From Nitrospirota bacterium (lineage in GTDB: Bacteria > Nitrospirota > Nitrospiria > Nitrospirales > Nitrospiraceae): a stretch of DNA of 64,000 nt. This document shows positions 46,411-49,529 of the stretch, in pieces (position 1 is the stretch's first letter; each line of letters starts with the position of its first letter). The translations under genes were made by a program, and so were the position numbers. The DNA lies in assembly GCA_004296885.1 (NCBI GenBank), contig SCVN01000023.1, positions 248,001-312,000 on the forward strand. The letters are read 5' to 3'. Under the pieces are notes generated by a model. The model searched no databases. It was not told the origin of the DNA and saw only the letters and a list, made by a program, of their open reading frames with translations.

Positions 46411-47343
46411 ATGTCCCTGCAATATGCCCTGTATCCAGGCTGTGCGGCCAAAGGCGCCACGCCGGAACTGTACCAGTCCACCATGGCCATCATCGGCCGG
46501 CTGGGCATCGAGGTGCAGGAACTGGCCGCCTCCTCTTGCTGCGGAGCCGGCGTCGTGGGGGAGGGGGAACCGGACGTTGCGTTGGCGCTGAACGCCAGAA
46601 CGTTCGCACAAGCCGAGCAGCTTGGGCTGGACGTCATGACCATCTGCGGGACCTGCCAAGGGGTGATGGGAGCGGCAAACAAACGCTTGAAACAGGAGCC
46701 GGGGCTCCTGAATCGGATCAATCGGGTCTTGGAACGCGACGGCCCCATCTACCGCGGCACGATCCAGGTCAAACATCTGCTGTGGATCCTGGTGCGCGAG
46801 GTCGGGTTGCACCGTCTCGGACAAGAAATCCGCGTGCCCCTGAGCGAATTCCGGATCGCGCCCTTCTACGGCTGCTATATTCTGCGCCCCTCCTGGGACC
46901 TGGGGTTCGACGACCCGGAAAATCCCACCTCGCTGGAGAAAGTCATCCGGGCCGTCAAGGGCGAACCGGTGGCCTATGCGGGCCGGACCAAGTGCTGCGG
47001 ATTCCCCGTCATCCTGGAGCAGGAAGCCATCGCCGTCGCCATGGCGGGCACGAACATGAAAGAAGCGAAGGACGGCGGCGCCGATTTCATGGTCACGCCC
47101 TGCCCCCTCTGCCACATGAGTCTGGACATCTACCAGGATCGGGCGGGGCAGGCCGTCAATGCCCACCTGAACCTTCCCATCCTGCACTTACCCCAGTTGC
47201 TCGGGTTGGCGATGGGCATACCGGCCAAGGATTTGGGCGTCTCGCGTCATCTGGTGCCGGTTCATGCGATTACCAGAGTCACGGAGTCACGTCGAATGCA
47301 GCTGACAGACCGTAAAGGAGTGGCGAGCCATGAAAGTCATTAA
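46411..47343 (+). CDS. CCG-domain protein (SdhE/HdrB-like subunit)
   Basis: 310 aa. Two CCG domains: YALYPGCAAKG ... ASSCCGAG ... ICGTCQG, and APFYGCYILRP ... RTKCCGFP ... TPCPLCHMSL. Such proteins (HdrB, SdhE/SdhC of type E succinate dehydrogenase) bind noncubane Fe-S clusters and hand electrons to quinone or disulfide. Because the window has an SdhB with an archaeal-type third cluster, I favour the SdhE role; HdrB remains possible. Its end overlaps the cupin gene start by 14 bases. Confidence 0.83.
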   Translation: MSLQYALYPGCAAKGATPELYQSTMAIIGRLGIEVQELAASSCCGAGVVGEGEPDVALALNARTFAQAEQLGLDVMTICGTCQGVMGAANKRLKQEPGLLNRINRVLERDGPIYRGTIQVKHLLWILVREVGLHRLGQEIRVPLSEFRIAPFYGCYILRPSWDLGFDDPENPTSLEKVIRAVKGEPVAYAGRTKCCGFPVILEQEAIAVAMAGTNMKEAKDGGADFMVTPCPLCHMSLDIYQDRAGQAVNAHLNLPILHLPQLLGLAMGIPAKDLGVSRHLVPVHAITRVTESRRMQLTDRKGVASHESH

Positions 47344-47650
47344 TCTCTCTGACTATCAGCAGTTCAACAACGAGAAGATGAAGAAGAACAATATCTTTCA
47401 GACGTCTCGTTTTTTCTGCGATGTCTATTGTTTCGAGCCGGGACAGGAGCAGAAAGGTCACATACACGGGGAGCAAGACAAGGTCTATCTGGTGCTGGAA
47501 GGGGAGGGGACATTCAAGGTGGGCACCGAGACGAAGGTGCTTGGGCCGGGGCAGGGCACGATGGCGCCGGCCGGTGAAGAGCATGGGGTCCTGAACCATA
47601 CAACCGGGCGCTTGAAGGTCCTGGTGTTCGTCGCGCCAAATTCCAACTGA
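47330..47650 (+). CDS. Cupin-domain protein
   Basis: 106 aa single cupin: FCDVYCFEPGQEQKGHIHGEQDKVYLVLEGEGTFKVG gives motif 1 with His-His-Glu ligands, and PAGEEHGVLNHTTGRLKVLVF gives motif 2 with His. AAAGGAG precedes the ATG, which lies inside the preceding gene. Small cupins of this kind are metal-binding enzymes or sensors; the reaction is not predictable. Ends before a bidirectional terminator. Confidence 0.85.
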   Translation: MKVINLSDYQQFNNEKMKKNNIFQTSRFFCDVYCFEPGQEQKGHIHGEQDKVYLVLEGEGTFKVGTETKVLGPGQGTMAPAGEEHGVLNHTTGRLKVLVFVAPNSN

Positions 47651-47728: not shown

Positions 47729-48694
47729 CTATTGCGCCGGCGGTGTGATCTCGCTCTGGGGAGCAACAGGCACCCAGGGCGTCATGGGCATCAGCGGCGC
47801 CGGCTTCGCGTCCGGCCCCACCACCAGCACGGCAATCGCGCCACGCAACGCGCCCGTCAGCGAGTGAGTGACCAGCGGGTAGGCGCCGGCCGATTCCGCC
47901 ACCACGTCAAACGTTGCCGCGCTGCCAGGTCCCACCACGTAGGTCTGAACCCCGGTCAACTTGTTGCCGGGATTGCCGCTCTCATACACATTGTCCCAAA
48001 TTTCTCCGATCGGGTGGAACGCGGAAAACTCGTTCGGACCGGCATTGACGAAATAGACCCGCACCCGCTCACCAGGTTTGGCCTCCAGCGGTTTGCCGCC
48101 GGTGACGAACGGATGATACTTGAAGATGCCGCCGTTGAACACGACATGGTCGAACTTCCGGTCAAACATGGCCGGGACGTCGTCCGGATTCTTGAACAGC
48201 TCCGACTGCACCAGGACATACTCACGATCCGCTTTCGGCCAGGCCTTGGCATTCTTGGGGTCCACGATAATGGCCCCGATCATGCCGCGGGCCACGTGCT
48301 GGATCATCGGCGGGGCGCCACAATGATAAAAGAAAATGCCCGGCTTTTTGGCCACGAAGGTGTAGCTGATCGTTTCGCCGGGATTGATCGCCCGATAGTT
48401 CTTCAAGAAGTCGATCTCCGCCGCATGGAAGTCCATCGAGTGCGGGTAGGTGTTGGTCTTGGGGTTTTCCAACGTGAACTTGATCGTGTCCCCCTCGGTG
48501 ACCCGCACGACCGGGCCGGGGAACTGGCCGTTGAACGTCCAGGCCTTGTAGGTTGCGCCCGAACCTTCGATGACGACGTCGGTCTCCTTTGCCGTCATGT
48601 TCACTTCATGGGTCGTGGCCGCAGCCGGCTGGGCCGTGGCAAGCAGGCCTCCCATCACCAGCATGGCGCCAAGAGCTGAACGCATCCGCTTCAT
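47729..48694 (-). CDS. nirK: Copper-containing nitrite reductase-like protein (NirK family)
   Basis: 321 aa with signal peptide (LGAMLVMGGLLATAQPAAA). Two cupredoxin domains. Type 1 Cu ligands: His85, Cys125, His133, Met138 (FFYHCGAPPMIQHVARGM). Type 2 Cu ligands: His90, His124, His277. Catalytic residues equal to Asp98 and His255 of Alcaligenes NirK are Asp88 (HSMDFHA) and His227. The C-to-H spacing of the T1 loop is one residue shorter than in that enzyme. Reduces nitrite to NO in denitrifiers; in Nitrospira NirK is known but its role is debated. The ATG follows GGAGG. A Crp/Fnr gene lies upstream. Confidence 0.88.
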   Translation of the reverse strand: MKRMRSALGAMLVMGGLLATAQPAAATTHEVNMTAKETDVVIEGSGATYKAWTFNGQFPGPVVRVTEGDTIKFTLENPKTNTYPHSMDFHAAEIDFLKNYRAINPGETISYTFVAKKPGIFFYHCGAPPMIQHVARGMIGAIIVDPKNAKAWPKADREYVLVQSELFKNPDDVPAMFDRKFDHVVFNGGIFKYHPFVTGGKPLEAKPGERVRVYFVNAGPNEFSAFHPIGEIWDNVYESGNPGNKLTGVQTYVVGPGSAATFDVVAESAGAYPLVTHSLTGALRGAIAVLVVGPDAKPAPLMPMTPWVPVAPQSEITPPAQ

Positions 48695-48750
48695 TCGCTA
48701 CCTCCTCAATGGATCGATGATACCAGTACACATGACTTACTGTGGCCGGC

Positions 48751-48756
48751 AGGATA
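48751..48756 (-). promoter_or_regulatory. -10 element candidate for nirK
   Basis: TATCCT on the minus strand. Its centre lies about 33 bases from the centre of the palindrome at 48776-48797, the spacing expected for a class II Crp/Fnr-activated promoter (operator near -41.5). The resulting transcript would have a leader of about 50 bases. Confidence 0.45.
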
Positions 48757-48775
48757 GCCTGCGGAGCCGCCGCAT

Positions 48776-48797
48776 AAACATGACCTACATCATGTTT
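48776..48797. promoter_or_regulatory. Crp/Fnr-type operator, perfect palindrome
   Basis: AAACATGA-N6-TCATGTTT: two exact 8-base half-sites with a 6-base spacer, the dyad format of the Crp/Fnr superfamily. It lies between crp (ends 48804) and nirK, 92 bases from the nirK start codon. Confidence 0.75.
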
Positions 48798-48803
48798 TGA
48801 AAA

Positions 48804-49529
48804 TTAATGGGGTCGGGAGGAAGCAGACGCCAGATCCGGCTGTTCAGACGCGAGGGCCTTCAGTTTGGCAAGGTCACGGATGACAATGTGCTTGGCCGTG
48901 CCGGACACCAACCGGGCGCGCTTAAACCGCCCCATGATGCGGATGGCGGTCTCCACCGTAATTCCGACCATATTGGCCAGGTCCTGGCGGGTCAACCGGA
49001 CGGTCAGGCGAATCCCGTTCGCATCCTTCACCCCGGTCCTGGCGGCCATGTTCACCAGCAGGGCGGCCAAGCGTTGTTCGGCCCGATCCAACGCCAGCAC
49101 TTTGGCGTTCTCTTGGGCCTCGTTCAGACGTTGGCCGAGGTACCGGATGACTTCAATGGCGGCCTCGGGATTCCGGCGGAGCACGTCGAAGTAGGCTTTC
49201 TTGCTCAATCGGAGTACACGCACATCCCCCATCGGCTGGGCACAGCCGGGATGGGGCGCTCCGTCAAAGACCGCCGCCTCGCAACAGAAGAGATCGCCCG
49301 GCAGCAGCACCTTGAGCGTCACCTCTTTTCCGTCCGGCGAGGTCTTGACGCACTTGACGCTGCCTTCTTTGAGGATGTGGAAATACTCCGCCGGATCCCC
49401 CTCTCGGAAGATAAACTGGTTCTTGCTGTAGGAGGACTCGACGATCTGACCAGCGAGATTCCGACGGTCTTGGACCGTCAGGACGTTGAGCAGCGGAATT
49501 TTCTTATGGAGAGGATCGGCGACGCCCAT
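48804..49529 (-). CDS. Crp/Fnr family transcriptional regulator
   Basis: 241 aa. N-terminal cyclic-nucleotide-like sensor: FIFREGDPAEYFHILKEGSVKCVKTSPDGKEVTLKVLLPGDLFCCEAAVFDGAPHPGCAQPM, then dimer helix and a C-terminal winged HTH with recognition segment LTRQDLANMVGITVETAIRIMGRFKR. No Cys array typical of Fnr [4Fe-4S], although CC and GC pairs occur near residues 82-100, so NO or heme sensing as in Dnr/NnrR is possible. Same strand and upstream of nirK; the palindrome between them is the likely target site. Confidence 0.9.
   Translation of the reverse strand: MGVADPLHKKIPLLNVLTVQDRRNLAGQIVESSYSKNQFIFREGDPAEYFHILKEGSVKCVKTSPDGKEVTLKVLLPGDLFCCEAAVFDGAPHPGCAQPMGDVRVLRLSKKAYFDVLRRNPEAAIEVIRYLGQRLNEAQENAKVLALDRAEQRLAALLVNMAARTGVKDANGIRLTVRLTRQDLANMVGITVETAIRIMGRFKRARLVSGTAKHIVIRDLAKLKALASEQPDLASASSRPH

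Follow-up and report, generated by a model that had tools for sequence, protein, structure and literature searches.

The window analyzed herein is a stretch of 64,000 nucleotides of contig C23, part of the 3.26-Mb genome of a member of the Nitrospirota, to which MAGs of Nitrospira/Nitrospiraceae are the nearest relatives with a name. Two of its genes stand in tandem on the minus strand. The first, hereafter crp (48,804–49,529), codes for a regulator of 241 amino acids that matches PF00027 (73 bits) and PF13545 (66.6 bits), which gives it the cNMP-binding-like sensor domain and HTH_Crp of the Crp/Fnr superfamily, and whose recognition helix reads VETAIR. The second (47,729–48,694) codes for a protein of 321 amino acids with a signal peptide, annotated as the copper nitrite reductase NirK by its copper-ligand motifs, read from the sequence, and by its best family, TIGR02376, with a score of 207.8 bits that is below the curated cut-off of 296.3. 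The genes are separated by 109 bp, in which nirK has a ribosome-binding site, GAGGAGG, at 48,701–48,707 (minus strand). A small cupin gene at 47,330–47,650 adjoins nirK and may be a member of its neighborhood; a close relative of this cupin is also found near the gene that replaces nirK at locus L162, described below.

In the gap between crp and nirK, at 48,776–48,797, lies AAACATGACCTACATCATGTTT, a perfect dyad of the form AAACATGA-N6-TCATGTTT with zero mismatches between its half-sites and with the core ATGAY-N4-RTCAT. The exact dyad that the original prediction had noted just behind crp was thus found, as was the TATCCT on the nirK strand, at 48,756–48,751, 33 bp away from center to center. 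Allowing up to three mismatches, it is the only match to the pattern in the window (0.03 expected in shuffled sequences); an autoregulation of crp was rejected, since there is no second match and hence none before crp. Perfect 8-6-8 dyads as such are not rare, as the window contains five of them, so the dyad alone proves little and its significance depends on conservation. Two other elements of the gap, a second half-site-like ACATGACTTAC at 48,730 and a GCAGG-CTAT-CCTGC dyad around the -10 element, were present only in close relatives and lost beyond them, and were not taken as functional. Elsewhere in the genome, a second perfect ACATGA-N6-TCATGT was detected at C9:17613. It spans the likely start codon of an ORF for a small membrane protein and was judged a chance occurrence.

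Conservation was evaluated in 52 distinct loci of relatives, aligned on the site and read on the nirK strand. Most positions of the 20-bp site carry about 1.1 to 2.0 bits, ATGA..TCAT is nearly invariant, and the spacer never departs from 6, while the remaining intergenic DNA is mostly near zero in information. Besides the site, just two elements are conserved: the -10 element (about +29 to +35 from the center), which in the window is the TATCCT, and a T-rich tract directly 5' of the site (-13 to -19; 0.6–1.1 bits), at 48,800–48,806 on the minus strand of the window, where it overlaps the stop codon of crp. A TANNNT hexamer follows the site at an offset of 19 in 38 loci and of 20 in 14, that is, in 52/52, compared with at most 7 of the 52 loci at any other offset, and this hexamer is 32 or 33 bp from the site center in every locus. 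When it is placed at -12 to -7, the dyad is centered at -41.5 or -42.5 and the T-rich tract falls at about -55 to -61. This is also the position of the alpha-CTD at class II promoters, and the tract is a candidate alpha-CTD contact. No -35-like hexamer was found in the crp–nirK gap, which fits the expectation for this class. As far as geometry goes, the region thus has the center near -41.5, the good -10 and the missing -35 of a class II promoter, and the comparison supports the class II placement that had been predicted for nirK. Given this conservation, the putative operator is almost certainly a genuine binding site that, together with its promoter, has been retained across the Nitrospira family. 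Class II activation of nirK from this site is probable; the geometry suggests activation, although it does not by itself prove the sign of the effect.

The distribution of the site was surveyed in 175 genomes of the family, in which a nirK-linked crp was called at E ≤ 1e-40. The exact AACATGA-N6-TCATGTT was detected in 56 of the 175 genomes, nearly always at nirK, and the reversed control pattern in none, while the degenerate AAYATGAY-N4-RTCATRTT was detected in 75 (control, 3). The degenerate site is present in 73 of the 88 genomes with a nirK-linked crp, as opposed to 2 of the 87 without one (Fisher p = 3e-31). Likewise, 55/57 nirK upstream regions with crp contain the site at two or fewer mismatches, whereas none of the 26 without crp (0/26) has it with fewer than four. 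The original prediction had suggested looking for copies of the dyad near nitrogen-metabolism genes. From these searches, the operator appears to serve nirK nearly exclusively, and not nitrogen metabolism at large.

Seven g14 genomes contain another nirK, about 63% identical and with no adjoining crp, that is preceded by the same site and by a GTATCCT (GGTATCCT) -10 element; here, too, the site lies behind a gene on the same strand. Second nirK genes with no linked crp (loci L267–L275, in G020, G022, G024, G030, G031, G038, G043, G035, and G037; about 63–64% identical) have the operator with one to four mismatches and the -10 at equal spacing. In three genomes (G005, G008, and G074; loci L159, L160, and L162) the target is swapped, as the unit of crp and site stands before a cluster with genes for a CxxCH cytochrome c and a divergent multicopper oxidase, which replace nirK; site and crp thus stay together. 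At L160 the operator is present in two copies. In another genome, G051, a perfect operator (L161:4023–4042) with a TATCTT one base closer was found 5' of a gene that, with its PLCPC motif, resembles the catalytic subunit of ferredoxin-thioredoxin reductase. Taken together, the genome counts, the nirK upstream regions, the second nirK genes, and the swapped targets make the linked crp the best candidate for the reader of the site, and its product very probably is the protein that reads, and putatively binds, the operator.

The recognition helix and the operator were compared using orthologs from other families of the order. Regulators with a V/T/P/LETx(I/T)R helix face ACATGA or ATATGA in nearly all cases, KETTSR orthologs face an AATGAT operator, and the LETTSR ortholog with a site (L252) faces TTTGAT/TATGAT. 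The EETxVR orthologs face TTGAT or TTGAC in 7/7 cases, which corresponds to the classical Fnr box TTGAT-N4-ATCAA. In the tree, the EETxVR sequences fall outside a 38-row clade (99/100) containing the other helix types, so the switch from EETxVR to VETAIR is one event and carries the statistical weight of one event. The pairing of operator and helix agrees with the covariation of residue 180 (residue 192 of the window regulator) with the same base (Rodionov et al. 2005; PMC1274295). A change of Fnr S212 to Ile as the only explanation of the T to A substitution was rejected, because the KETTSR helix keeps the Ser and yet faces AATGAT. The lineage-specific half-site of the original prediction is supported, with a refinement: ACATGA/ATATGA and TTGAT track the helix type, and ACATGA is absent from the classical Crp/Fnr motifs compared, but the half-site is not wholly unlike the Fnr box, of which ATGAY-N4-RTCAT is, on comparison of the sequences, a variant with one base changed per half. 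In two genomes of one genus (G062 and G065; loci L197 and L198), a distant crp (46–48%) with an EETVVR helix lies beside nirK with a TTGAC/TTGAT box, and perhaps replaced the usual regulator.

Other readings of the dyad were weighed. The number of perfect dyads in the window would allow for a chance inverted repeat, a reading already refuted by the conservation and by the occurrence of the exact pattern, but not of its control, at nirK in the family; its probability is negligible. The dyad could also serve mainly as the intrinsic terminator of crp, forming an A/T-flanked hairpin. As RNA, the crp-side strand does fold into a 9-pair hairpin (two-hairpin segment of -14.9 kcal/mol, z -3.4), and T runs lie behind the dyad in many relatives. 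However, the sequence itself is near-invariant, beyond what pairing would account for, the spacer and the distance to the -10 are fixed, and the scan gave no terminator match. That the site is gone where crp is gone, is retained with swapped targets, and is also present at the unlinked nirK, although there too behind a same-strand gene, weakens this reading further. Despite the foldable strand, the terminator was rejected as the main role on the sequence conservation and the lack of a terminator match, and we consider it very unlikely.

Two further readings accept the site as real. Its reader could be a different Crp/Fnr paralog, alone or in cross-talk with the nirK-linked regulator, since the same genome encodes a paralog (G000:C18:3427–4149, L279) with the identical recognition residues VETAIR, which could bind too, and since G138 and G155 have a perfect site 5' of the gene that neighbors a relative of this paralog. 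The site nevertheless tracks the nirK-linked crp irrespective of the paralog, being present in 43/53 genomes with crp only versus 2/10 with the paralog only, and no such site was detected beside the paralog in the 30 loci examined, on which ground the idea that the VETAIR helix of the paralog brings sites to its own locus was rejected. A reading by the paralog is thus unlikely. Similarly improbable is repression of nirK by the regulator from this site: some Crp/Fnr proteins act as repressors, and a protein on this operator would sit over the -35 region, a position from which the polymerase can be blocked, but a promoter with no usable -35 hexamer, an operator centered at -41.5/-42.5, and an upstream T-tract has the layout of class II activation. 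The paralog itself has an N-terminal CxxC...C and adjoins a gene for an outer-membrane protein; in G138 and G155, it is this neighbor that has the operator at its 5' side.

The fold model of the nirK-linked regulator (pLDDT 84.6) is a CRP fold, whose best structural matches are Mycobacterium tuberculosis CRP and GlxR. Among 72 distinct orthologs, the helix residues E193, T194, and R197 are invariant, as are C60, C82, C83, and H93, while C96 is variable; the CC pair is absent from ten more distant Crp proteins. The N-terminal cluster cysteines, which Fnr combines with a fourth in its sensor domain, are missing, as residues 1–59 of the regulator contain no Cys. When aligned to CRP, C60 corresponds to a strand residue of the pocket and C82-C83-H93 to the phosphate-binding cassette; where the cNMP pocket would have its phosphate-binding Arg, 72/72 orthologs have His93. 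Tentatively, the regulator may represent a new sensor class, in which C60, C82, and C83, together with His93, would hold a metal, an Fe-S cluster, or an NO-reactive center in the cNMP pocket and control nirK via an operator derived from the Fnr box. Copper as the ligand, if true, would suit a target that is a copper enzyme.

In the mechanism that we propose, and regard as very likely as a whole, the neighboring Crp/Fnr-family regulator would use the dyad as its operator. Triggered by a signal sensed by its cysteine-bearing cNMP-type domain, a dimer of the regulator, we infer, would bind to the nirK promoter on ATGAY-N4-RTCAT, at -42.5 and over the missing -35 element, and would recruit RNA polymerase by class II activation. 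Regulator, site, and nirK would be co-inherited as a near single-target circuit. NirK is present in all Nitrospira analyzed, and its role in nitrite oxidizers has been stated as unknown (PMC8115632). A near-dedicated regulator and a sharp operator would mean that NirK is made on a specific cue, the identification of which would show the purpose of NirK, and the operator would be a direct handle on the timing of nitrite reductase production in these nitrifiers. Also, the TTGAT, AATGAT, and ACATGA operators, with differing helices and at the same promoter position, offer an order-wide natural series on the change of DNA specificity in Crp/Fnr proteins.

That crp adjoins nirK has already been published, whereas our literature search for the operator in Nitrospira found no earlier report. 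Camejo et al. (2017; PMC5596200) described, for N. moscoviensis, N. defluvii, OLB3, and UW-LDO-01, an Fnr gene 5' of nirK and suggested that nirK may be under its control; we saw no mention in that paper of an operator, of the geometry of the promoter, of covariation with the helix, or of conserved cysteines. Beach et al. (2021; PMC8510549) assigned a Crp/Fnr homolog of Nitrospira, which may not be the ortholog of the window regulator, to NnrR with a proteobacterial matrix. As this matrix derives from R. sphaeroides and enterobacteria, sites of the ATGAY type would not be expected to be found with it, and regulons predicted in Nitrospira from proteobacterial Fnr or NnrR matrices may miss them. 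NnrR is, like the regulator proposed here, a Crp/Fnr activator of nitrite reductase genes, but its operator ctTTGcgnnnncgCAAag (PMC1274295), with the consensus TTGcg-N4-cgCAA, differs from the site described herein.

With the CRP of E. coli and M. tuberculosis (TGTGA-N6-TCACA), the system shares the N6 spacing; its closest solved folds are, as seen above, those of M. tuberculosis CRP and GlxR. The half-site, however, has CATGA instead of TGTGA, CRP Arg180 is V/T, and an invariant His-Pro-Gly stands where CRP has the phosphate-binding Arg. FNR of E. coli and DNR are alike in fold family, spacing, the TGA core, the recognition Glu and Arg (E193 and R197), and class II placement. The differences from FNR are the outer base of the half-site, A here and T in FNR, so that the half-sites read ATGAT/ATGAC instead of those of TTGAT-N4-ATCAA; the positions of Fnr V208 and S212, which are V/T and I/T in the regulator; and the missing N-terminal cluster cysteines of the oxygen sensor. 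The FNR/DNR box itself is the operator that the more distant EETxVR orthologs of the regulator face.
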